Below, one piece after another: positions 6,792-21,535 of a stretch of DNA of 21,535 bases. The position numbers and the translations under genes are program-made. The notes below the pieces were generated by a model. It saw only the letters and a list, made by a program, of their open reading frames with translations, ran no database searches and had not been told where the DNA came from. The DNA is from a virus: positions 1 through 21,535 of the IMG/VR virus record IMGVR_UViG_3300036846_000451. One strand, written 5' to 3'. Each line of letters begins with the position of its first letter. Position 1 is the stretch's first letter.

Positions 6792-7910
6792 ATGACACTA
6801 CCGGGTTATGAAGTCAACATCATTGAAACTCCACCGAGTGCGGCAGAGTTTGTTGACATTGCAACCCTGTTTGCTGTTGGACCAGTTGCAACACCAGGAT
6901 TCGATTTGGTTTACTCAATTGACCAGTTTGAGTTACTGTTTGGTTCAAGGCAAGCTGGCGACCCCATGTGGGATGGGGTGCAGACATTCTTCAGGGAAGG
7001 TGGATTCAGAGCTTACATTTCAGGAGTGCCACTAGCTGCACTACCACCTGACATTGTTACTGGACTGGATGCTTTTACTAGTGACCTGGGACCAGGTTCA
7101 CTTACTGCATTTGGTCAGACTGATCCTGAAGTTCATGGTGGTCTTCTGGCAGCAACAGCAAACGGACGTATTGCACTGCTAGATGCATTGGATGATCCTG
7201 ACTCTGCAACTGTAACTGCTGCTGCTACCGCACTTACTGGTACAGCAGGTGACAGGTTCTCTGGCATGTTCTGGCCGTGGGACGTTGTACCTGGACTTAC
7301 ACCAGGGACAGTACGTACCGTTCCACCATCAGCACGTATTGCAGGTAACCTTGCACGTAATGATGCACTTGGTTACGGTTCAGGTGACCCTGCTGCTGGT
7401 GTGTTGGGAATTGCACGTTACGTTCAGGACTTGTCACAACCTACACTGGTTGACTCTGACCGTCAGGCAATGAATGAGGCAAGTGTGAATGTCACTGTTC
7501 GCAAGTTGAACGGTATTCGCACTTACGGTTGGCGTTCACTTGCTGACCAGGTGAGTGATGCTGACTGGTCATTCTTCAACAACAGCCGTACTGTCATGGC
7601 AGTGCAATCGGCACTGAGTGTTGTTGCAGAGAATTTCATGTTCAGTAAGTTGGACTCCATGGCAAAAGTCACCAAGAAGTTTGGTGGTGCAATTTCTAAT
7701 GCATGTCTCGCATTCTGGCAAGCCGGTGACCTGTTCGGCGACACTTCCAGTGAAGCGTTCAATGTTGATGTTGGTCCCGCTGTGAACACACCTGCTGATT
7801 TTGCACAAGGTAAGTTGTCAGCGAATGTCGGACTGCACACTTCAAGCATGGCAGAAAAGGTGATTATCAATATCGCTAAGGTGCCAATCACTGAATCACT
7901 AGCAGCGTGA
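6792..7910 (+). CDS. Contractile tail sheath protein
   Basis: A 372-aa protein in the sheath slot, directly before the tube gene. The start (MTLPGYEVNIIETPPSA) is a typical sheath N-terminus, where the first strand meshes with neighbouring subunits. Other sheath features are YSIDQFELLFGSRQAGDPMW followed by FFREGGFRAYISGV (the Gly-aromatic repeat of the conserved domain) and VPPSARIAGNLARND. Near the C-terminus, EASVNVTVRKLNGIRTYGWR is the family's conserved region. It is close in length to P2 gpFI and much shorter than T4 gp18, so it has few surface insertions. This gene shows that the phage has a contractile tail. Confidence 0.92.
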   Translation: MTLPGYEVNIIETPPSAAEFVDIATLFAVGPVATPGFDLVYSIDQFELLFGSRQAGDPMWDGVQTFFREGGFRAYISGVPLAALPPDIVTGLDAFTSDLGPGSLTAFGQTDPEVHGGLLAATANGRIALLDALDDPDSATVTAAATALTGTAGDRFSGMFWPWDVVPGLTPGTVRTVPPSARIAGNLARNDALGYGSGDPAAGVLGIARYVQDLSQPTLVDSDRQAMNEASVNVTVRKLNGIRTYGWRSLADQVSDADWSFFNNSRTVMAVQSALSVVAENFMFSKLDSMAKVTKKFGGAISNACLAFWQAGDLFGDTSSEAFNVDVGPAVNTPADFAQGKLSANVGLHTSSMAEKVIINIAKVPITESLAA

Positions 7911-8358: not shown

Positions 8359-8895
8359 ATGGAAGACACTGAACTTACCACTCACACTGAAGATGTAACT
8401 AACGGTGAAGTGGATGATGAGTCACAGGGTGCACTCCTTGACAATCTGAAGCAACTCCGTGCTGAAGCTACTAACCTGTTTGGCACAACCAAGATCATGG
8501 AAGTACCTGGTTACCATGGACTGCTTGCCATTGAATACACTTACATCAACTCAGAAGTAACTGAAGTGATTGCACGTGAGGTTCGGCGTGAGACAAAGAA
8601 TGTCAACGGAATTGGCATGAACCTGTTAGCGTCACTTGATACTCTCATTGCAGCTTCAAAGAATGTACTGATCCGTAAGGATACTCACCGTGACTGGCGA
8701 CCACTTGACAAGGAACATCAGGTGAATTTCAAGTCACTGACATTGGCACGTACCCTTGACTACCCTGCTGATGATTCACGTGATGTTGTACTTGGACTGT
8801 ATGGTTCTGAGCATAGTGTCATTGAAGCGAACATCCTACTGTCAAGGTGGCTAACTGATAAAACCCGCACAGCAGATGAGGATTTTTTAGGTTAG
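8359..8895 (+). CDS. Tail assembly chaperone, short (unshifted) form
   Basis: A 178-aa protein with GGAGAG (8351-8356) before the ATG. The N-terminus is acidic (MEDTELTTHTEDVTNGEVDD), followed by a beta and helical domain with VPGYHGLLAIEYTYINSEVT and a helical HSVIEANILLSRWLTD tail. It lies between tube and tape measure, the universal slot for the chaperones that coat the tape measure during tail assembly (lambda gpG, P2 gpE). The short form stops at TAG 8893-8895, only four bases after the slippery site at 8883-8889; a longer form is described separately. Confidence 0.85.
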   Translation: MEDTELTTHTEDVTNGEVDDESQGALLDNLKQLRAEATNLFGTTKIMEVPGYHGLLAIEYTYINSEVTEVIAREVRRETKNVNGIGMNLLASLDTLIAASKNVLIRKDTHRDWRPLDKEHQVNFKSLTLARTLDYPADDSRDVVLGLYGSEHSVIEANILLSRWLTDKTRTADEDFLG

Positions 8896-9101
8896 TCAAA
8901 CAAGAAGTTGAACTGATAGAGGCTGCCAAAGTGCAGTTAGCTGGAATGTCAGGATGGCGATTCCTCACTGTCAGTGACCCTATGGAACGGTTACTGACAC
9001 AAGCTCTTGCTGAACAAGTGTTTAGACTGATGGATCAGCGTGACGAAAATCAGGCACAGCGAATTGCCAACTGTGTTTCCAAACTGTTTGGGAGTAACTG
9101 A
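8359..9101 (+). CDS. Tail assembly chaperone, -1 frameshifted long form (G-T type)
   Basis: The canonical heptamer T TTT TTA is read in frame as GAT TTT TTA at 8881-8889. A slip of one base back continues at 8889 as RLVKQEVELIEAAKVQLAG and runs for 70 codons to TGA 9099-9101, overlapping the tape measure ATG (TGATG). The -1 frame has a stop at 8877-8879, just before the slip site, and no nearby start, so it can only be reached by frameshifting. The product is 247 aa. Conserved elements such as WRFLTVSDPMERLLTQAL give the extension a normal protein character. The gap between chaperone and tape measure is therefore coding, as in P2 gpE/E' and lambda gpG/GT. Confidence 0.88.
8883..8889 (+). promoter_or_regulatory. 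-1 programmed ribosomal frameshift site (T TTT TTA)
   Basis: The heptamer TTTTTTA matches X XXY YYZ with the zero frame split as T TTT TTA. It lies 6 bases before the zero-frame stop. I did not find a clear downstream stimulatory hairpin by eye, and no obvious internal Shine-Dalgarno stimulator within 15 bases upstream. Confidence 0.88.
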
Positions 9102-10951
9102 TGGCAGATGAAGAAGCTGTAGAGATTGTCATACGTCTGAAAGACCTGCAACAGTTTCTTTCAGGTACAGAGGAAGCTGCTGTATCAATCAGGAAGATTG
9201 GCACTGCATCCAAAGAGACTTCAATAGAAGCCACAGCTTCACTGAATAAAGTTCATGGTGTAGTTGGCAGACTCAAAGAAGCTGCACACAGTACCGCTAG
9301 CGCAATGGCGTCTATGGCACACAAAACTGCTGCTGGATATAGACACATGAGAAGTGGCATTGAAGGTGTGGCTAGTAAGTCACTCATGCCTGGTGGACCA
9401 GTAGTAGGTACAATTGCAGGAATGGCAGCAGGTGCACTGTCAATAGAAACTGTCAAGTCAGCTATTGAATCCACAACTGAGCTTGCCAAGAATGCAAAGG
9501 CATTCCATGAAGTAACAGGTATGACAAACAAGGATGCTGTTGGTTGGCAAGCACTGACACAAGCATACGGTGTCAATGCACGTGCATTCGGCATATCAAT
9601 GAAATCTGTTGCCACTCAGTTTGAAACAGCCACTAGTGGTAAGGGTGGCAAGAAGTCAGTTGCACTGTTCAAAGACATGGGCATTGGTATGAATCAGTTG
9701 AAAGCTCATGGTCATGACATGAACAGTATGCTTGGTACTGTCATTGACCACTTCAACAAGATGCCTGGTGGTGCAGAGAAAACTGCAATTGCAACTAAAC
9801 TGTTCGGTCGCAGTTGGCAACAGTTGATGCCACTGTTAGGTGAAGGTTCTAAGAAGCTGGCAGAACAGCGCAAGGAAGCAGCAGCTTACGGAGTGACACT
9901 GAATGGTAATGCAACCAAGAATGCAATGAGGTTGCATGAGGCACAGATAAAACTGAAACTGGCAACCATGGGTTTGAAGGTACAGTTTGCAGAGAACCTT
10001 GCACCAGCACTGTTCACTGTGTTCGGTTGGATAATGAAACTGTACGCTGTTGTTGCCAAGAATATGAATCCAGCGTTCAAGCTCATGGGACAGATAATTC
10101 ATGATGTAACTCAGTATTTCAAAGAACATCATGACATGCTGAAGAAACTGGTAGATATATTGAAGTTTGTGGCACTGGCGTATGTAGCAATCAAGATACA
10201 GATAGTTGCATGTAAATTAGCAGCTATGGCAATGGATGCTTGGGAAGCAGGTACTAATCCATGGGTACTTGCAATTATGGCGATCATTGTAGTTGTTGTC
10301 TTGTTGGTCAAGCACTGGAATGCAGTGAAGAAAGTAGTTGGTAGTGTTGTTCATTGGGTTACTAATGCTTGGAACAACATCAAACATGCAGTGACAACAG
10401 CGATCACTGTTACCATCAACTTCTTGAAGAAGTGGTGGCCGCTGATTGTCGGTATATTCACTGGTCCCATCGGTCTGGTGATTGCACTATTCATCAAGTT
10501 CCACGATCAGATTTTGCAGAAGGTGACTGATGTGTGGAATTTCATCAAGTCAATTCCAGGTAAGATTGTGGATTTGTTCACTGGTGCAGCAAGCTCTATT
10601 GTCAATGCAATCACACAGCCTTTCAAGGATGCATGGCACTGGATCAGTAACTTGCAGATTCACTTGAAGTGGACACACATTGGTCCAGTGAAGGTGCCGA
10701 GTGGTGTGTCAGTCAGTAGTGCACAGCACGGTGGAATCAGGAGTGGACTGACACTGGTTGGTGAGGCTGGACCTGAGTTGGTGAACTTGCCTGCTGGTTC
10801 AAGAGTGCAACCACATACGTCCACAAGTGTCGGCAGTGTGCAACAAACAGATAAGGTCATGCCGCCGTTTGTCATATCAGTGCAGATTCAGCGTCAAGAG
10901 ATTGCACGTGCAGTTGGTAAGTACACAACTGACAGGTTGGCGCGACGATGA
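9101..10951 (+). CDS. Tape measure protein
   Basis: A 616-aa protein, starting in a TGATG overlap with the long chaperone and with GGGAG at 9090-9094. The N-terminal ~110 residues are helical. Residues ~140-270 show the usual minor tail protein domain (GWQALTQAYGVNARAFGISM, then ATKLFGRSWQQLMPLLGEGS). Residues ~345-400 and ~445-465 include strongly hydrophobic stretches (WVLAIMAIIVVVVLLVKHW; WWPLIVGIFTGPIGLVIALF) that may insert in the host membrane on injection. The C-terminus has the typical LVGEAGPELVNLPAGSRVQ. At ~1.5 angstrom per residue the tail would be near 90 nm (inferred). It is short for a myovirus tape measure but typical of P2/Mu-sized tails. Confidence 0.9.
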   Translation: MADEEAVEIVIRLKDLQQFLSGTEEAAVSIRKIGTASKETSIEATASLNKVHGVVGRLKEAAHSTASAMASMAHKTAAGYRHMRSGIEGVASKSLMPGGPVVGTIAGMAAGALSIETVKSAIESTTELAKNAKAFHEVTGMTNKDAVGWQALTQAYGVNARAFGISMKSVATQFETATSGKGGKKSVALFKDMGIGMNQLKAHGHDMNSMLGTVIDHFNKMPGGAEKTAIATKLFGRSWQQLMPLLGEGSKKLAEQRKEAAAYGVTLNGNATKNAMRLHEAQIKLKLATMGLKVQFAENLAPALFTVFGWIMKLYAVVAKNMNPAFKLMGQIIHDVTQYFKEHHDMLKKLVDILKFVALAYVAIKIQIVACKLAAMAMDAWEAGTNPWVLAIMAIIVVVVLLVKHWNAVKKVVGSVVHWVTNAWNNIKHAVTTAITVTINFLKKWWPLIVGIFTGPIGLVIALFIKFHDQILQKVTDVWNFIKSIPGKIVDLFTGAASSIVNAITQPFKDAWHWISNLQIHLKWTHIGPVKVPSGVSVSSAQHGGIRSGLTLVGEAGPELVNLPAGSRVQPHTSTSVGSVQQTDKVMPPFVISVQIQRQEIARAVGKYTTDRLARR

Positions 10952-11619
10952 AACTTGTCACTTTTACCTCGCATGAAATCAGGCTTTCTGCAACAGTTCC
11001 TTTGGCTGGTCCGACTGTTGTTGTGCAACATGACCCTGAAGGTTGGCAACAGGTACAGCGTAAGTGGCGTACCTCTTTCACTGAGTGGCAGGGTGGACCT
11101 ACCTATGAGTTACAGGTTCCACTGGTGTTTGACCAACTAGGGTTCAACCCTAGGCTTGGCAGTGCCATGAATTCAGTGGAACAGAACATACGTAGGATTG
11201 AACGGTTAGCAGAGAAGTTGTCAAACAAGCCACGTACACCAATTGTCAGGATAGATGCACACGGTGCAATACCACATGACTTCACTAACGATCACACTAA
11301 GTCATGGGTAGTTGCAACAATTGCATGGGGTGATTACATCATCAACAGCAATCTGTCACGTGTCCGTCAAGAGTGCACAGTGACATTCTGGGAGTATGTA
11401 CCTGACAAGGTACTACAGGCTAAGGAGAGATTACCTGCTAGGCCAGTGCCTAAGAAGTACAAGATCAAGAAGGGTGACACTCTACAGAAGATTGCTGCTT
11501 ACTTCTACGGTGACCAAGCTGAATGGCATTCTATTGCCAAACTGAATAAGATTCACAACCCTACCAAACTGAAAGTTCACCATTGGATAAAACTACCAAC
11601 TGTCACACATAAGAAATGA
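10948..11619 (+). CDS. LysM-containing baseplate protein (gpX/XkdP-like)
   Basis: A 223-aa protein starting in an ATGA overlap with the tape measure. The first ~150 residues are beta-rich (LSATVPLAGPTVVVQHDPEG, MNSVEQNIRRIERLAEKLS) as in the tail proteins encoded after the tape measure in Mu-, P2- and PBSX-type tails. The last ~50 residues form a LysM domain: KKYKIKKGDTLQKIAAYFYG, AEWHSIAKLNKIHNPTKL, HHWIKLP. In these phages the LysM domain docks at the hub and sheath initiator rather than acting as a free wall binder. The next gene also overlaps by ATGA. Confidence 0.8.
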   Translation: MKLVTFTSHEIRLSATVPLAGPTVVVQHDPEGWQQVQRKWRTSFTEWQGGPTYELQVPLVFDQLGFNPRLGSAMNSVEQNIRRIERLAEKLSNKPRTPIVRIDAHGAIPHDFTNDHTKSWVVATIAWGDYIINSNLSRVRQECTVTFWEYVPDKVLQAKERLPARPVPKKYKIKKGDTLQKIAAYFYGDQAEWHSIAKLNKIHNPTKLKVHHWIKLPTVTHKK

Positions 11620-13658
11620 CCAGTTACTCACAGTTTGTAAAGCGTTCACGTGGTGCACATCATCCACAACCTACTCGCAAGAAGAAGACTGCTGCAAATA
11701 GAAACGTCAAGATACCGACACCACTTGACTATCCAATTGACACTGATCTTTCCAAGCTCATCCTCAATGATGAACTGGTAAGTGATGACATATCTCAGGC
11801 GATCTTGGATGGTAAGATCATTGAGACAATGGAAGGTGCAGCTTCACTTGAATTGGTGATTGAAGATTCAAGTAGAGTGTTAGTAAAGAAGCTGCTGAAG
11901 GATTGGGTGAATGCAGACAAACCTGTAATCATCACATCAGTTCATGGTCAGCGACGCCATCTAGTTATACCTGACACATGGAATGAAGTGTATGCAACAC
12001 TTGATGGCCGTGACTTCTGCTTGGTTGCATGTAACAAAGCGGCAGATGAATTCACCTTGACGTTTGAGAACCGTGCAGTACATGAGTTACGCAGGTACAA
12101 GAAGCGTAAGACATGGACACGTACTGCAACGTTCACACGTGCAATGGCTATCAAGGCAATGTGTGATGAAGTAACCACTATGCCTGGTGGTGTGCAGTTC
12201 TTCTCTACTGAGTTACACAATGTTCAGCCGATCAAGAACTTGAAACAGTTGCCTAACAGTAAGCAGACTAAGGCAATCAAGGGTCGCGGCTTTGCACCTA
12301 ATGCGCCAGTGACAGTGAAACATGTGCGAGCTTCACCACAACAGCGTGACTACATTGCACAAGTTCTTACCACTGGTGAGTCAATGAAGATGCCATATGC
12401 AGTGTTGGTGTCTTCCATCATGTGTATTACTCAGGAGTCAACAGTTAGTATCCTGAACAATCCGACACTAGGTATGGGTTTGTTCAGTCAGGAGAAATAC
12501 ATCAACGGTGTACGTACACATTGGCCGTGCATGGATCATGGAATACCTGGTGATGCAACTGCATATTTCGATCAGGCAATCAAGTGTTACAGAAACAGTC
12601 CAAGCCAAGCTCTAGCTGAACTAGTACAGTGTGTGCAAGCAAGTGGCGCTGGTGCATCTTACTATGCACAGTGGGAGAGTGAAGCAAAGAACACATTGAA
12701 GCTGTGGGGTACCACAGAAGGTAGTAGTAGTGTCAGTTACACTGAGTACAATTCATATGTGTTCACACGTGGTGTCAGTGGTCTGGTGGAAGACTCATGG
12801 GACTGCATGATACGCCTTGCCAAAGAAGTGAACTTCCGAGCGTTCATGATTGACAACACGTTGTATTATGAGGATGACGTTACACTAATCAACTCAATTC
12901 CGTTTGACACAATCAGTGAAGCAACTGAGGGAATTGACACAATCGACTATGACATTGACACTGGCAAGAAAGTGTCTGAGTGTACGGTAACTGCACACTT
13001 CGATAGGTGGGCCGCTCCACCTGGATGTGTTGTTGTAGTTGAAGATACTGGTACTGCTGACGGTAGATGGTTGGTGTGGCAAGTAGAACGTCCACTGTTC
13101 TCCACAGTAGGCACAATCACTCTTCACCTTCCACAGCCACCGCTTCCTGAACCTGCACCTTCTACAACGTCAGTTACTATCAAGGGTGACGTGAACCTGA
13201 AGATTGGCAAGCACGGTAAGATCAGTGGCAGTGGTAATACTCAGATTGACAATGTGTACAACAAAGCAATCGAGATTAGCCAGAAGGGTTATCCATACGT
13301 TTACGCTGGTGGTCATGATGCAAACTTCACTGCACCGTATGACTGTTCAGGTTATGTGTCAGCGATTCTTCATGCTGGTGGTATGGTGTCATCACCAATG
13401 GCATCAGGTGGCTTTGACAGTTGGGGCGACCCTGGACAGGGTCAGATAATGACAATATGGACTAACCCTGCAATCGGTCCACTAGGCCATGTGTTCATTG
13501 AATTCAAGTTACCCAAACCAGTTGGTCATGTACAAGCCAATACTTCACACAGTGGCATACGTCCAGGTGTAGGTGCTGCTGTATTACCATGGGGCGGTAA
13601 CGGTGAAGCTGACTCTCACTTGTCAACATTCCATCCACGTCATTGGCCGGGCACATGA
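11616..13658 (+). CDS. Baseplate hub with inserted lytic transglycosylase-like domain and C-terminal NlpC/P60-like peptidase
   Basis: A 680-aa protein. Residues ~40-230 and ~365-535 look like the two halves of a P2 gpD/T4 gp27-type hub ([39 protein letters not shown]). Between them, about 243-360, is a lysozyme-like insertion: CITQESTV with Glu274 as candidate catalytic residue, then LGMGLFSQE, and a helical end [10 protein letters not shown]. This matches the actinobacterial QES/LGLFQQR-type domain. The C-terminal ~120 residues resemble NlpC/P60: [11 protein letters not shown] with Cys577, and LGHVFIEF with His625. The hub holds the tail tip and would drill through peptidoglycan during injection. 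Seen: motifs and order. Inferred: both activities. Confidence 0.8.
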
Positions 13659-15796
13659 GTTATTCAGATTACTTCGCTGATGCATTTGATGAACAGAAGT
13701 ATGTCAACAATGACAGGCGTACTGCTGCCACTGCACTTGTTACACAGAAGATGGATGACACAAATGGTGTCATTACCATTGACTCTTTCGATGGCGGCGT
13801 TCATGGGTTCCCAATAGAGACAGGTGCAGTAGAAGGTGAAACTATTGCTGTTGTGCAGGATGAGAACAGTAAGTATTGGGCGATCACTCCTAGTGCACTT
13901 GGTGCACCTGGTCCTGAAGGTCCACAGGGTCCACCTGGACAAACTGGTGCCACTGGTCCTGCTGGACCACAAGGTGCAAAAGGTGACAAAGGTGATACTG
14001 GTGCACAAGGCGTACAAGGTCCAGTAGGTGCAACAGGACCGCAAGGTGTGAAAGGTGACACTGGTGCCACTGGTGCTACTGGTCCACAAGGTGCAACAGG
14101 TGCACAAGGCCCAACTGGTGCTGATGGTAAGGCAATGGATGGCTCAGCAATTGGCACAGTGTCAACGTTCAGTGGTAAGACACTGCCATATGGATTTGTG
14201 ATTGCTGACGGTGCGACATATGCACAAGGTACTTATCCACAAGGTTACGCTTTCGCTCAACAGGAAGTTGCAGCAGGTAATGCACTGTGGACAGTGAATA
14301 CTACTAACGCTACGTTTACTGTCCCTGATTTGCGTGACAAGTTCCTCATGTCATCAGCATCAATTGCATGGGCAACCAAAGCCGGTGAAACGACACATGT
14401 ACTGGCGAAAGGTGAAATGCCAGTGCACAATCATGGTGGTGCTACTGGCGGTGGCACATCAGGTGCAATGGACCGTTCACCAAGTCATCAGCATTCAATT
14501 GACATTGCTAACGGTGGCGCTGCTGGTAGCTGGTTGTCAGGGTGGGGTGCAGGTAACCCTGGTGGTTACGCTACTGGTGCTGCTGGTGTTGACCACTTGC
14601 ACGGTATCCCTGCCTTGTCAATCGGTAATGATGGTAGTGGTACAGCACACAACAACATGCCACCTTACTGTGTCATTGCAATGATCGTGAAGGTGGCAGG
14701 TATTACTGTTGATCCTACATCAGCAGTAATTCAGGGTCCACCTGGTGTCCGTGGTTCCATTTGGTACATGTACACTGGAACTGGAACACCACCTGCCGGT
14801 ACGTTCATTGGCGAGCTTGATGGTGACTTCTGCATTCGCCAAGTTGATGGTGAGAACTTTGAACGCAAAGCTGGTGTGTGGGTTGACCTAGGTTTCACTA
14901 ACCGTTCAACTGCTGTTGTTACTTCAGCACGTATGTACCGTAGTGCAGCATGGACAATCCCTGGTGGTAATGTGATTACGAAAGTTCCACTTGACTCAGT
15001 GGAATTTGATTCCAGTGGATCGGCAAGTGTTGCTAATGGTCGAATCAATATAAAGGCTGCTGGTTACTATCAGGTTACAGGAGAGATAGCTGTTTATCCT
15101 ACCAGTGGTGCTAATACAAATGTAACTGGTTTATCCTTCCTGTATGTGAACGGTACGAACCATACACAAGGTCCACGCCAAGGTCAGACTGATACATTTG
15201 GCGCATATAGTACAGGAGTCAGTGACACCTTACATTTGAACGTTGGAGACTATGTTGAACTGTGGGGAATGTCTAGCGGTGCTTGGTCTGTACAATCTGG
15301 GCAATCGACTGTATTTCTATCAGTTACACTAATTACCGCAGGACCGGGACCACAAGGTCCACAAGGTCCAATGGGTTCTACAAATGGTTTGATTGGTGCA
15401 CCTGTTCCGTGGTTGACAAGTGTAATTCCAACTGGCTATTTAGAATTCAATGGACAAGCTATTACTCAAAGTCAATATCCAACTTTGTATGGATTGTTTG
15501 GAGCAAGCTTACCTGACTTGACAGGTAAATTCATGATGGGTGTAGATGGCACACATGCAATTGGAACTACGGGTGGCGAAGCAACACATGTTTTGTCTGT
15601 TGCTGAAATGCCAGCGCACAATCACAGTAAACAAACTTCATGGCCGGGTACTGCTGCTGATGCTGGTTGGAATGGTGGTGGTTGGAATAACGGCGCGTAC
15701 CCACAAGCCATTGGTTCTGACAACACTGGTGGTGGTGGTGGTCACAACAATTTACCTCCGTATCACACAGTACATTGGATAACATTTGCTGGGTAA
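13655..15796 (+). CDS. Mosaic tail fibre with collagen-like, collar, C1q-like and second collar domains
   Basis: A 713-aa protein starting at the ATG of an ATGA overlap with the hub (an upstream TTG at 13643 is less likely). Residues 1-82 are a beta-rich N-terminus that anchors or caps the baseplate. Residues 83-160 are 26 uninterrupted Gly-X-Y triplets. A Phage Collar domain follows ([24 protein letters not shown]), then a His-rich segment with three HxH motifs. Next come a [10 protein letters not shown] unit (~360), a C1q/TNF-like beta domain (~418-565), a short second collagen stretch [10 protein letters not shown], and a second collar domain with HNH near the end. It is the likely receptor-binding fibre. 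From about 15001 to the end base composition is lower in GC than before. Confidence 0.85.
13901..14134 (+). repeat. Collagen-like Gly-X-Y codon repeat (26 triplets)
   Basis: Twenty-six uninterrupted Gly-X-Y codon triplets, mostly GGT-initiated, from GAP to GKA, with GPQ, GAT and GDT recurring. It codes for a trimeric collagen-like stalk in the fibre, and the repeated DNA could also drive length variation by recombination. Confidence 0.95.
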
Positions 15797-15817
15797 AACT
15801 CAAACCTAGGAGAACTT

Positions 15818-16117
15818 ATGACACTGTTTGCAGTCTTTCAGGTTCCACTTCCTGCTGATCCTGCTTTGATTCCACCAGGTATAACCATGTGGTCAATGAG
15901 CGGAATTGCTACTGAAGCCGATGATTCACAAGCTGCACTTGACAAGGTACTAGAAGGTGGCAACATCTTGGTTGGCACTGTCTATGTTGCTGACCTGACC
16001 ACTACTGACACTTACAACATTCAACTGAATACCTCAACTGAAGTGGTGGTGGACAAGGAGTCACATATTACATCTGTGTTGGTTACTACTGAAGAGGAAG
16101 TAGAAAGTGGCGAATGA
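15818..16117 (+). CDS. Unknown 99-aa protein in the baseplate cluster
   Basis: A small protein with a good Shine-Dalgarno, AGGAGA at 15808-15813, 5 bases from its ATG, and only 21 bases after the fibre stop. Its stop overlaps the GTG of the gp25-like gene, so it sits in the operon as a real gene. The protein has a hydrophobic, proline-rich N-terminus (FQVPLPADPALIPPGITMWS), a helix (SQAALDKVLEGG), a beta-rich centre (NILVGTVYVADLTTTDTYNI) and an acidic tail (VTTEEEVESGE). I do not recognise a family. Because it lies between the fibre and the wedge genes, baseplate component or fibre chaperone is possible; neither is shown. Confidence 0.7.
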   Translation: MTLFAVFQVPLPADPALIPPGITMWSMSGIATEADDSQAALDKVLEGGNILVGTVYVADLTTTDTYNIQLNTSTEVVVDKESHITSVLVTTEEEVESGE

Positions 16118-16439
16118 AGATATCATCACGCCACAGTGGGCATTACCGTTCACGTTCACTGATGATGGTGATGTGGTGGCATGTGAACAAAGTTCAGATG
16201 AAGAGATACAGAACAACGTCTGGACGATACTGTCATATGAACCAGGTCAGCTAATCGCCAACACTGACTTTGGCATCATGGAACCTACTTTCAACAAGAG
16301 TGGTGTGAATCTTGATGCACTCAGTCAGTTGATAGTGAAGTGGGAACCTGAAGCAACTGAAGTAATCAGTCGTGACCCTGAGTGGTTCAGAACTATGATT
16401 GACACTATTACCATTTGGAGGCAATCAGGTGCCCAATGA
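16107..16439 (+). CDS. Baseplate wedge protein, gp25/gpW-like
   Basis: A 110-aa protein, close to the length of P2 gpW. It has the gp25 lysozyme-like wedge pattern: EIQNNVWTILSYEPGQLIAN followed by TDFGIMEPTFN (the conserved P-E-F-G/D-F-G region) and a helix ending VIVKWEPEATEVIS-like. The GTG start at 16107 overlaps the stop of the 99-aa gene by 11 bases, with GAGGA at 16094-16098 upstream. It sits right before the gp47/J gene, the invariant pair of contractile baseplates. It forms the wedge core together with the J-like protein. Confidence 0.85.
   Translation: MANEDIITPQWALPFTFTDDGDVVACEQSSDEEIQNNVWTILSYEPGQLIANTDFGIMEPTFNKSGVNLDALSQLIVKWEPEATEVISRDPEWFRTMIDTITIWRQSGAQ
16417..16421 (+). 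promoter_or_regulatory. Ribosome binding site deciding the start of the J-like gene
   Basis: GGAGG inside the end of the gp25-like gene, 7 bases before GTG 16429. This favours GTG 16429 over the in-frame TTG 16399. The ATG at 16436 is in another frame and so cannot be the start. Confidence 0.8.
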
Positions 16440-17604
16440 ATATATTGAGGTTCCGGTTGAGTTTGATGAAACTGCACTGTACAACATGGCAGTAGCTAAG
16501 GTACAGGAGACTTTCCCTGAATGGGTACCTAAGCCTGCATCAACAATTGACATAGTGTTCCGTGCAGGTGCAACAATGGCCGCTGTTGGTGCAGAGGTTG
16601 CCAGTGATGTTCCATCAAATATCTTCCGTGCATTTGGTGACTTGGCTGGTGCACCGTCATTGGATGCTATCTCAGCAACAGTCATATTGACATTCAATGC
16701 TATTGATACCAACGGCTACACCGTTCCAGTGCAGACGCCAGTTGGCATGTCTTCACCGTCCAATCCTGACACTGTTGGATTCTGGACACTGAATGAAGCT
16801 GACATACCCAATGGTCAGTCAAGCCTTGATGTATTGTGTGTGGCAGTGATTCCAGGTGCGAACGGTAACAATCTGTTTCAGGTGACACGTACAGATTCAC
16901 TATCATTCATTAGCAGTATCGCAATGAGTCCATCCAATACTGTAAGTCAGGGTGGACAGGATGCAGAGTTGGATGATGCCTTTGATACTCGGTTGGCACA
17001 AGAGTTTGAAACCTGGTCAGAGACACCAATCCTAGGTAAGAACTTTGCAGTGTTGGCACGTAAGGTGAATGGTGTCTACCGTTGTGGTTACATTGACAAC
17101 TACAACCCTGCCGATCAAACCACCAACAATGACAAGATGGTGGCACTGTGTCCGATTGACGCTGACGGTAATGATGTGTCAACTACTTTGCAGCAAGAGG
17201 TTGCAGCTTTGATGGAGTCATGGCGGGAAATGAACTTCATCTGTAACGTCATGGGTGCCACACGTTCACTGATTGATGTGACTTACACTGGTCATGTCAA
17301 TGATCCGACAACTGTTGAACAAGCCACCAGTGATGTGCAGACTGCGTTGGATGCCTACCTGAACCAAGCATCATGGGGAATTCAACAGACACAGACAGGT
17401 GAAGTGCCAGTGTGGGAGAATGAACCCAACATCAGGTACTCAAAGATCATGACCACGATTGAATCTGTACCGTCACTCGATTGGGCAGAACTGGTGACGT
17501 TTGGTATTCAAGCTGGCACAATGGGTACAACGGATATCGTCATGCCTGGTGCATTCACACTTCCAAACCTAGGTGTTGTCACAGCTAACGTGGTGTCACC
17601 ATGA
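16429..17604 (+). CDS. Baseplate wedge protein, J/gp47-like
   Basis: A 391-aa protein overlapping the gp25-like gene by 11 bases. It matches the Baseplate_J family of P2 gpJ and T4 gp6/Mu gp47: an N-terminal helical part (ALYNMAVAKVQETFPEWVPK, IDIVFRAGATMAAVGAEVAS), then a beta region beginning at SATVILTFNAIDTNGYTVPV, the IPGANGNNLFQVT stretch typical of the central domain, and GGQDAELDDAFDTRLAQEFE. It lies beside gp25, as in all contractile baseplates, where it forms the wedge ring. Its last ATGA overlaps the gpI-like gene. Confidence 0.88.
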   Translation: MPNEYIEVPVEFDETALYNMAVAKVQETFPEWVPKPASTIDIVFRAGATMAAVGAEVASDVPSNIFRAFGDLAGAPSLDAISATVILTFNAIDTNGYTVPVQTPVGMSSPSNPDTVGFWTLNEADIPNGQSSLDVLCVAVIPGANGNNLFQVTRTDSLSFISSIAMSPSNTVSQGGQDAELDDAFDTRLAQEFETWSETPILGKNFAVLARKVNGVYRCGYIDNYNPADQTTNNDKMVALCPIDADGNDVSTTLQQEVAALMESWREMNFICNVMGATRSLIDVTYTGHVNDPTTVEQATSDVQTALDAYLNQASWGIQQTQTGEVPVWENEPNIRYSKIMTTIESVPSLDWAELVTFGIQAGTMGTTDIVMPGAFTLPNLGVVTANVVSP

Positions 17605-18215
17605 GTGTCATTGGTGATGGTAGCTTTGCTGATCGGCTGTATGAACAGTTACTACCGTTTCAGAAGCTTGACCAGTCACTTCACTTGTGGGTGTTCTGTG
17701 ATGCATTCGGTTGTATGTTCCAAGCAGTTGAAGATTTGACAGCCACACGTGATGATGACCTGGTGGGTTACGCTAACCTGTTGGACATTGATACTTGTCC
17801 AGAAGAGAATCTTGGTTACCTAGGTCAGTACGTTGGTGTCAATCTGCGTGATGACCTGAGTGGTGATGCACAGCGTGATTGGGTGAGACAGAAGCGTAAC
17901 TTCAAGCGTGGTACACCACAGGCAACAATAGATGCAGTAAAGGAGACACTCACTGGTACACAGTATGTGGCACTGAATGAGCGTATCGGTACAGCATGGC
18001 ATTACACAGTTGTCACCAAGCCAAGTGAAACACCTGACCCCACATTGACTGAGCGTGCCATCCTCGCACACAAACCAGGACCGGACACTTACAACCACAA
18101 CATGACAGAGTATCCGACATACGGTTGGGTGCGTGACACTTACAACTTGTACTCAGAGTTGCAAGCTGCTTATCCGACATATGGAGATTTAGCTAACGCG
18201 GAGATTACACTCTAA
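17601..18215 (+). CDS. Tail protein, P2 gpI-like (baseplate wedge/fibre attachment)
   Basis: A 204-aa protein following the J-like gene in an ATGA overlap, as P2 gpI follows gpJ. It carries LYEQLLPFQKLDQSLHLWVF and FQAVEDLTATRDDDLVGYAN (the family's helical start), then EENLGYLGQYVGVNLRDDLS and QRDWVRQKRNFKRGTPQATI. A short C-terminal extension has two YPTYG motifs (YPTYGWVRDTYNLYSELQA and YPTYGDLANAEI), 60 bases apart in DNA; this extension is a common feature of actinophage tail proteins. It likely connects the wedges to the fibres encoded next. Length is a little above P2 gpI, mainly because of this tail. Confidence 0.85.
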   Translation: MSVIGDGSFADRLYEQLLPFQKLDQSLHLWVFCDAFGCMFQAVEDLTATRDDDLVGYANLLDIDTCPEENLGYLGQYVGVNLRDDLSGDAQRDWVRQKRNFKRGTPQATIDAVKETLTGTQYVALNERIGTAWHYTVVTKPSETPDPTLTERAILAHKPGPDTYNHNMTEYPTYGWVRDTYNLYSELQAAYPTYGDLANAEITL

Positions 18216-19245: not shown

Positions 19246-19440
19246 CGCCTTAGAATCGCTCATCTTGTTCTGTGTCCTGCGACACTGATCTAGGAAGTTA
19301 GCGATACTGTCAATGCGAACATGCACTGTGTAAATCATGTTTCGCTTTGACGGTTGTATGTTGATACGTGCTATGCCACCTTGCATCACATGTGCACATG
19401 CCCACTCTGCATCTTCAAACAGGTCAGTGCATTCAATCAT
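19240..19440 (-). CDS. Unknown 66-aa protein coupled to the DNA polymerase
   Basis: Its ATG overlaps the polymerase stop in an ATGA arrangement (on the minus strand), and AGAGG lies just upstream inside the polymerase end, so it is very likely co-translated. The protein starts MIECTDLFEDAEWACAHVMQ, has a short beta stretch (GGIARINIQPSKRNMIYTVHV), then a helix (RIDSIANFLDQCRRTQ) and a polar end. Four cysteines include none in a clear metal-binding arrangement. I recognise no family. A replication accessory role is possible because of the coupling, but it is inference only. Confidence 0.65.
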   Translation of the reverse strand: MIECTDLFEDAEWACAHVMQGGIARINIQPSKRNMIYTVHVRIDSIANFLDQCRRTQNKMSDSKAS

Positions 19441-21535
19441 TTCAGGCTACCTCTATTCTTACCTGTTGTGATCTTGGCAACAAACGGTACAACAGTATCA
19501 ATAGGTACCTGTGACATTTCTTCAGCAATGATCCTCTTCACCTGTTTGGCATAGCTACGTCTGCACTCGGTGAGTATGGAGTCATGCACAGTGAGGATGA
19601 TGTGTGCAACTACTCTGCCAACTTTGCGATTCAGTCTCTTCAATCTGGCATGAATGCGGATCAGTGCATCAAGTGTAATGTCACTGGCGAGTGACTGAAT
19701 AGGAGTGTTGATACCTTGTCTGCCAACTGCACCATTGTCTCTACCAGTGATGAGTGGGAACCTACGCAACCTGCCAAGTTCAGTCTCTAGCTGCTGGTCA
19801 CGGTACACTATTTGTTTCTGTTCAGCTTGCCATTCCCGTAACCCTGGATAGTGTGCAAAGAACCGTTTGAAGAAAGTGTCCACTTCATTCAGTGTCCATC
19901 GGGTGCCACCTAGTTCATTCACCAGGTAGTCCATTTCAGGACCGAATGCTATTGATGGTGCACCACGATCATACATGGCACCGAACACCATGTTCTTTGA
20001 CATGACACGTTCATAGTCAGTGAAGCTGTCTTTGCGGAAGACTGCTGTTGCTGCATCCTTGTGTAAGTCTCTACCATCAATGTATGCCTGTATGAAGTTC
20101 TCATCACCTGTCAAGTGTGCAGCAACACGTAACTCTAGCTGTGAGTAGTCTGATTCAATAAGTAGCCAGTCATCATCTTCAGGTATGAAAGCTGTTCGTA
20201 TGTCAAAGCCAGTGTGGGATTCCACTGAGATATTTTGAAGATTAGGGTTGACTGATGAGATTCTACCTGTACCTGTTCCATGTAGGAGAAAGTCACTTCG
20301 TACCCTGTCATCCGATTCCATTCGATCAAGTAACCCATTGATGTAAGTTCCAAGTGTCTTCTTGATTCCACGCCACTTGATAATTTCATCGAATAGATAT
20401 CTGTATTCTGGGTATCTGCTTCTGAGTATCTTGATGACAGGTTGCGAGGTTGGACCTTCTTGTAACTTCCCTTTGCGCTCAGTCTTAGTAACAGGTAGTC
20501 CAAGTGTCTTATACAGGAGATTGTGAGTTTGCTTGACTGAACCAGGATTGAAGTCAGGGTCTTCCACATACTCTCTGATCTTCTGTGTAGAGACTTCCAA
20601 GTCATGTGTCAGCTTCTCCTTCATTCCTTCTAAGTAGTTACGATCCAGCTTGCATCCACGCAGTTCAATCTCTGTCAGTGCAAGCGAAGCTGGTACTAGT
20701 AACCATTCATATAGGTCAAGTAGATTGTCACTCTCCTTCTCCACATCATTACGTAGGTCAGTAGCTAGCCGTGCAGTGTAGTAACAATCAAGTGCCAGAT
20801 AGCCATAAAGCTCTGCCAGCATTTCCTGTTGACGTTCAGGTGTGGCTTTCTTGTACTCAGCTAGCCACTTGCCAACTTCAATGTCATAGTCAGGTGCATC
20901 GTATCTGACACGTGAAATGTTCTTCAGTGAGTGTGCACCATACTTACCCCATGGCCGTTCATCAAGACAGTAGTTCAGTAACAGTGTGTCATCAATGTTG
21001 TTGAACACACAGTCAATACCAAACTTCTCTAGTGCCTTGATGATGAACTTCAGGTCAAACTTGCCACCATGGAATGCAGTGCACCCATACCGTAGCTGAC
21101 TGGCGATTGCAAACCAGGTACCTTGATAATCAAGTAACTCCTGAGTGATGATGACTGCACTACCGTTAGTGCCACTGACTGCACCGAACCCTATACAGAG
21201 TATGTCATCCTCAAATGGTGAGAACCCTGTTGTCTCAATGTCACATGATAACTGCCTGTCAGTGAATGCACCTAGGTTGGTCAGGTCATGATTCAGTTCA
21301 CTAACTGTTTCAGGTATGGAGTACCGAATGTCCGGCCACGGTTCCCTGCCATCAGTGGTGAAGAACTTTTCAAAGGCACGGTAGAAGTCACGGTAAAACT
21401 CAGGGTCCATGATGACACGTGTTGGTGAGTAAGTGCCAATCAGTTGCATCCCATACACTGACAGCCACTTACCATGCACCTTGTCCATACGTGGTATCTT
21501 GCTGGTACTGGTAAGTGCAGCGTAGCTGATGGTAC
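19437..21535 (-). CDS. Family A DNA polymerase with UDG-like N-terminal region, 5' truncated by the window
   Basis: The frame is open to the right edge, so the gene starts outside; ATG 21488 is internal. Residue numbers below count from that ATG. Upstream and to ~45, TSKIPR..KVHGKW and GTYSPTRVIMDPEF fit the end of a uracil-DNA-glycosylase-like domain (usual T-x-H-P...R), with Ser replacing the His. Then come 3'-5' exonuclease motifs: SCDIETTG (D83, E85), HGGKFD (D145), and YLALD (Y230, D234). The polymerase part has DYSQLELR (D447), R494-K498-F502-Y506 in the O-helix, and LTVHDSILTE (H635, D636) with Ser where E. coli Pol I has Glu. It replicates phage DNA and proofreads. It lacks a 5'-3' nuclease part in view. 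Confidence 0.93.
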   Translation of the reverse strand, partial: TISYAALTSTSKIPRMDKVHGKWLSVYGMQLIGTYSPTRVIMDPEFYRDFYRAFEKFFTTDGREPWPDIRYSIPETVSELNHDLTNLGAFTDRQLSCDIETTGFSPFEDDILCIGFGAVSGTNGSAVIITQELLDYQGTWFAIASQLRYGCTAFHGGKFDLKFIIKALEKFGIDCVFNNIDDTLLLNYCLDERPWGKYGAHSLKNISRVRYDAPDYDIEVGKWLAEYKKATPERQQEMLAELYGYLALDCYYTARLATDLRNDVEKESDNLLDLYEWLLVPASLALTEIELRGCKLDRNYLEGMKEKLTHDLEVSTQKIREYVEDPDFNPGSVKQTHNLLYKTLGLPVTKTERKGKLQEGPTSQPVIKILRSRYPEYRYLFDEIIKWRGIKKTLGTYINGLLDRMESDDRVRSDFLLHGTGTGRISSVNPNLQNISVESHTGFDIRTAFIPEDDDWLLIESDYSQLELRVAAHLTGDENFIQAYIDGRDLHKDAATAVFRKDSFTDYERVMSKNMVFGAMYDRGAPSIAFGPEMDYLVNELGGTRWTLNEVDTFFKRFFAHYPGLREWQAEQKQIVYRDQQLETELGRLRRFPLITGRDNGAVGRQGINTPIQSLASDITLDALIRIHARLKRLNRKVGRVVAHIILTVHDSILTECRRSYAKQVKRIIAEEMSQVPIDTVVPFVAKITTGKNRGSLK

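Follow-up and report, generated by a model that had tools for sequence, protein, structure and literature searches.

The diffocin hub CD1368 carries both a transglycosylase and an NlpC/P60 domain (PMC10996793), and hub gp15 of the Anabaena myophage A-1(L) bears endoglucanase and peptidase domains that are active on cells (PMC10966104). Deep-Blue Gp189 and Vp4 Gp110 are lytic hub-NlpC proteins. Here, we analyzed a virus fragment of 21,535 nt (21.5 kb; "the window") that encodes a baseplate hub with a predicted GH184-like muramidase between its two halves and a predicted NlpC/P60-like peptidase at its C-terminus.

Like the window hub, CD1368 combines a glycan enzyme and an NlpC/P60 domain in one hub of a contractile tail with a thick wall as its (here presumed) target (PMC10996793). 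However, its order is hub, MltA-like transglycosylase, NlpC/P60, with both enzymes following an intact hub, whereas the GH184-like domain of the window lies inside the hub. A-1(L) gp15 also bears glycan- and peptide-cutting domains on one hub, with a lysozyme (56-265) and an endoglucanase (266-430) near the N-terminus and a peptidase (736-899) at the C-terminus (PMC10966104), but its enzyme families differ from those of the window hub and its host is Gram-negative. The tail-tip protein gp13 of phi29 (PDB 3CSQ) shares with the window hub a muramidase fold nearest to GH184 and a peptidase-like domain in a single tail protein; it is, however, a podophage tip without a hub fold, and its second domain is LytM/M23-like (PMC10394673).

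An earlier note, made from the sequence alone, had likened the protein to T4 gp5 and had stressed that both wall-cutting activities reside in one protein. Since gp5 is the spike, the proper comparison is with gp27-type hubs that carry hydrolases. Both cutters are indeed predicted here, but CD1368, A-1(L) gp15 and at least six relatives of the window hub carry such a pair, and therefore a hub that cuts both bonds is already known. What is new is that the glycan enzyme lies inside the hub, together with the evidence for cassette exchange. We found no description of a glycan enzyme placed inside a hub of this family in the limited open-access literature searched.

The hub gene and its neighborhood

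The window holds a contractile-tail module that includes sheath, tube, chaperone, tape measure, LysM protein and hub. The gene order on the plus strand is tape measure, LysM protein, hub, collagen-repeat fibre, gp25-like protein, baseplate J and gpI. The position of the hub gene, after the tape-measure and LysM genes and before those for the gp25-like and J proteins, fits a gp27-type hub. The anchoring genes are as follows.

6792..7910, plus strand: tail sheath protein, 30% identical to the annotated sheaths of ChisanaKitsune and Cantare
9101..10951, plus strand: tape measure protein (PHROGs tape measure, E 4e-30; weak PhageMin_Tail match in Pfam)
10948..11619, plus strand: LysM tail protein directly upstream of the hub (Pfam LysM E 1e-6, above the cut-off)
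11616..13658, plus strand: baseplate hub of 680 aa (plus stop) that bears two hydrolase-like domains, a single unbroken ORF kept at full length in the related loci L001, L010 and L011
16399..17604, plus strand: baseplate J wedge protein (Pfam Baseplate_J E 4.7e-19; start codon uncertain)

The sheath served as the anchor for finding relatives, and 40 loci were fetched, which included relatives of the hub protein at graded levels of similarity. No wall-enzyme domain was matched by Pfam in the window tape measure, and no gp5-like spike protein was recognized near the hub, in window 11620-18215, where a 99-aa ORF (15818-16117) is the sole small candidate without an assignment. Recognizable relatives of the J protein are mostly from actinophages, which suggests an actinobacterial host; scanning genome contigs with the sheath for a host clue gave no match.

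Several other features of the window were observed. The tail-assembly chaperone gene (8359-9100) has an in-frame T TTT TTA heptamer at its end (8883-8889), and the -1 frame runs on for 70 codons before a TGA closes it where the tape-measure gene starts, as is usual for a programmed frameshift. The fibre gene (13643-15796) encodes collagen repeats and two Collar domains; it begins with TTG and shares its first 16 bases with the end of the hub ORF. On the minus strand, against the direction of the tail genes, a 683-aa ORF (19437-21488) resembles family A DNA polymerase by eye.

Interruption of the hub and its two enzyme-like domains

The hub ORF is divided as follows (plus strand throughout).

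11751..12233, plus strand: hub N-half, residues 46-206 (hhalign against the N-halves of uninterrupted hubs gave P 93%, E 2.9e-7; the alignment does not cover residues 171-206, which we infer to belong here)
12234..12338, plus strand: linker before the insert, residues 207-241, without a library match and variable among relatives
12339..12710, plus strand: GH184-muramidase-like insert, residues 242-365 (tape-measure-domain HMM, pooled profile to GH184, AF2, Foldseek)
12435-12437, plus strand: Glu274, predicted catalytic acid, aligned with Glu41 of Kionochaeta GH184
12711..12785, plus strand: linker that joins the insert to the C-half match, residues 366-390
12786..13145, plus strand: hub C-half, residues 391-510 (hhalign to uninterrupted C-halves P 98%, E 5.1e-13; hmmsearch E 5.7e-8)
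13146..13238, plus strand: Pro/Ser/Gly-rich linker read from the sequence, residues 511-541, among the segments most variable between relatives
13239..13655, plus strand: NlpC/P60-like peptidase domain, residues 542-680 (P 93%, E 3.5e-7 in hhalign against the NLPC_P60 domains of relatives)
13344-13346, plus strand: Cys577, putative catalytic, in the motif YDC(577)SG
13488-13490, plus strand: His625, putative catalytic, in the motif GH(625)V

Direct Pfam, NCBIfam and PDB searches with the whole 680-aa protein were uninformative, and sequence matching to the PDB reached no hub. The halves of 16 uninterrupted hubs of other contractile-tail phages were cut and compared separately. Each half of the window hub matched its counterpart, and crossed hhalign comparisons with the same 16 hubs (N-half against C-halves, C-half against N-halves) gave no match. 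Two hub landmarks lie ~185 residues apart here and ~15 apart in uninterrupted hubs. Because the halves match in order and the crossed controls are negative, the earlier description of a hub that is broken by a glycan-enzyme-like unit and then resumes is correct. The insert occupies the identical hub site in four relatives, L001 (86% identity), L010 (74%), L011 (75%) and L015 (~25%), which share the layout of the window hub over its N-terminal and central parts; the interruption is therefore not an assembly artefact. By homology over both halves, the ORF encodes the baseplate hub of a phage with a contractile tail. AF2 on the full-length hub (15-row alignment) reached a pLDDT of 41, which leaves the hub fold and enzyme placement without a usable model.

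The insert bears the motifs QES, LGMGLFSQE and AQWESEA. A fragment of it weakly matched the tape-measure family PHROG 10030 (E 2.6e-5), and tblastn revealed the same kind of domain in tape-measure proteins of Streptomyces phages. Across 419 phage records, most of them from actinophages, this GLFQQRPSQGWG domain is part of tape-measure proteins, endolysins and minor tail proteins. An HMM of the actinophage tape-measure domain, built without any relative of the window, found the insert among 4553 real ORFs with E 1.6e-5 and 26.4 bits, compared with a best score of 10.4 bits for 5000 shuffles of the insert; among these ORFs, only the family of the domain and the relatives of the window scored better than 0.3. 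TM4 tape-measure motif 3 was dropped as a member of the insert family, its sequence being a different, M15-like motif, and these statistics leave it out. Scanning viral contigs with the insert returned no contigs beyond the relatives already found.

In the pooled alignment of 21 rows, which includes 16 tape-measure homologues, Glu274 and Ser275 are invariant. The pooled profile matched crystallized GH184 muramidases (8B2H, E 2.8e-17; 8B2E, E 2.1e-15) and placed Glu274, the earlier catalytic candidate, on Glu41 of KsGH184, the only residue shown by mutation to be essential (PMC10394673). For the window-family profile alone, GH184 is the best PDB match but with E 0.57; the significant link runs via the tape-measure homologues. 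AF2 gave the insert fragment a pLDDT of 70 and a pTM of 0.73, with the active-site loop region (fragment residues 45-76) weak and the small subdomain poorly modeled. Glu274 ends helix 26-39 of this model, and the catalytic Glu of GH184 stands at the end of helix 2. The best Foldseek match was 8B2E (prob 0.96, TM 0.57), but with E 0.28.

Two further observations concern tape measures. In the pooled profile, the GLFQQRPSQGWG domain itself, as found in the tape measures and endolysins of actinophages, matches GH184 muramidases; no Pfam family was reported for it in the hubs and the tape-measure piece scanned. Motif 3 of TM4 gp17 (L084:685-4374), which was shown to degrade peptidoglycan, appears by eye to be an M15-type peptidase (SGRALDI ... 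HMDHVHV) and not a glycan enzyme.

The hub C-terminus has the DCSG-type Cys and downstream GHV His of NlpC/P60 (C40) peptidases. Cys577, His625 and Gln640 are invariant in the window hub, L001, L010 and L011; with Glu274, the three predicted catalytic residues that the earlier note had named are thus kept in all three close homologues. The third, polar residue of the triad may be Gln640 or Asn642, where the alignment is ambiguous. Pfam NLPC_P60 scored 13.1-13.5 bits (13.4 for the window C-terminus), below the curated cut-off of 23, which is a detection threshold and not a biological trait, and the relatives' domains that hhalign aligned with this region do pass it. The peptidase of the earlier note is therefore retained as an NlpC/P60-like domain with predicted activity. 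The C-terminal domain of L015 differs; it is M15-like by eye, and no Pfam family was reached for it.

Related hubs and probable exchange of the insert

Six metagenomic relatives (L030, L025, L048, L038, L042 and L039) show the order SLT_3, hub, NlpC/P60. They share with the window the hub family, the C-terminal enzyme family and a glycan enzyme in the same chain, but theirs is an SLT_3 domain at the N-terminus of an uninterrupted hub, whereas that of the window hub is GH184-like and internal. Other pairs on related hubs are Glucosaminidase with NlpC/P60 (L032), M23 with NlpC/P60 (L020) and SLT_3 with M15 (L019). NlpC/P60 stands alone on the hubs of L034, L017 and L031, CHAP is found on those of Vibaki and Altadena, and the Cantare and L046 hubs have, by length, no room for an enzyme.

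Tandem hub paralogues were observed in the Gordonia phages ChisanaKitsune (gp47/gp48, L003:8086-10807) and GMA6 (Orf36/37, L086:4020-6743), whose annotations go no further than minor tail protein, hypothetical protein or hydrolase. The C-terminal domain is GH184-like in the first paralogue and NlpC/P60 in the second. The hub family and both enzyme types are those of the window, but the enzymes are split over two paralogues, each at the C-terminus, whereas the window hub has both in one chain.

NoodleTree gp178 (Mycobacterium phage, L081:1897-4743) and L085:4917-7838 contain GH184-like and NlpC/P60 domains, both mid-chain, and their flanks, of unproven fold, are strongly conserved to the Gordonia phage CherryTomatoes. 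This Bixzunavirus gp178 type is, as a myophage virion protein with both enzymes in one chain, similar to the window hub, but its enzymes are adjacent to each other and those of the window hub are apart. Comparison of the gp178 flanks with the halves of the window hub family did not show homology.

Synonymous divergence exceeds non-synonymous divergence in all hub segments, and dN/dS is ~0.1-0.3 in both enzyme domains; the insert and peptidase segments are under purifying selection. Between the window and L010, differences at third codon positions number 21/126 in the insert and 131/310 across the two hub halves (p 2.5e-7, Fisher test), and nucleotide identity climbs at ~residue 221 and drops again at ~residue 370. 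The same third-position contrast is absent between the window and L001 or L011. The simplest reading of this recombination-like signal, which comes from one genome pair and a small sample, is that the insert was exchanged as a cassette between phages. In L015, the insert site is filled, yet the C-terminal domain is not that of the window hub.

Competing readings and a model for wall opening

The nature of the insert can be read in more than one way. The earlier note had called it transglycosylase-like, and a lytic transglycosylase (GH23/SLT) would agree with the lysozyme-superfamily motif order E-S ... G-L-F-x-Q and with the N-terminal SLT_3 domains of related hubs. However, Pfam does not match the insert to SLT, SLT_3 or Lys, its profile compares with the relatives' SLT_3 domains at P 0.3%, and its clear relatives are tape-measure domains that match GH184 structures. 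Sequence cannot tell a hydrolyzed from a 1,6-anhydro product, but we consider a transglycosylase quite unlikely; the glycan-cutting part of the earlier claim stands as a prediction, and the SLT link does not. The insert could also have degenerated into a non-catalytic relative whose role is to bind wall glycan or merely to space the hub, given that LysM-type binding is common in tails, that GLFQQRPSQGWG is changed to GLFSQEKY, and that Asp66 of GH184 has no equivalent in the insert alignment, with Pro/Asn in its place. We regard this as improbable. Glu274, Ser275, Gln292 and Trp303 do not vary among four close relatives, the Glu and Ser are kept also in the distant L015, and the segment is under purifying selection. 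GH184 Asp66 is close to the ligand-stabilizing Gln54 of phi29 gp13, which likewise lacks that Asp and yet is the nearest structure to GH184 (PMC10394673). Because only Glu41 was shown to be essential, the missing Asp66 lowers but does not remove membership in GH184, hence the label "GH184-like". The insert is thus best read as a GH184-like muramidase, with predicted activity.

The third alternative concerns the whole 680-aa protein, which might be an accessory tail lysin next to a separate true hub. The tandem hub-like proteins of ChisanaKitsune and GMA6 would provide a precedent, and none of the window's proteins was identified as a separate spike. We nevertheless give this possibility little weight, as no other ORF between the LysM and wedge genes is hub-like in either the window or L001.

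Taken together, we favor, with a probability of about 0.74, a gp27-type hub that doubles as the tail's wall-opening tool by means of an internal GH184-like muramidase and a C-terminal NlpC/P60-like peptidase, wherein the muramidase is an exchangeable cassette common to actinophage tape-measure proteins and endolysins. By analogy with gp27-type hubs, three hubs would form a ring at the tube end, in which the two halves (~46-206 and ~391-510) join the tail tube to the tip. The muramidase (~242-365, Glu274) would hang by two flexible linkers from the loop between the halves and cut glycan strands, and the peptidase (~542-680, Cys577/His625) would hang at another point of each subunit on the flexible, Pro-rich C-terminal linker and cut stem peptides. 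Sheath contraction would bring both enzymes to the wall, and the tube would pass through locally dissolved peptidoglycan. More tentatively, and with less than even odds, we hypothesize that the loop between the hub halves is a docking port for glycan-cutting cassettes, which would recombine separately from the hub, and that it holds the muramidase at a radius or height other than that of the peptidase so that cuts fall at set positions.

With this layout, internal insertion would join the known strategies for arming the hub of a contractile tail. It would also place a GH184-like muramidase inside a phage hub, a domain otherwise found in tape-measure proteins, endolysins and, as seen here, at the ends of Gordonia hubs. 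In related phages, one hub scaffold carries at least six enzyme families at different positions. These phages may therefore provide a natural catalog of which hub positions tolerate an enzyme and of how the two cuts are coordinated.
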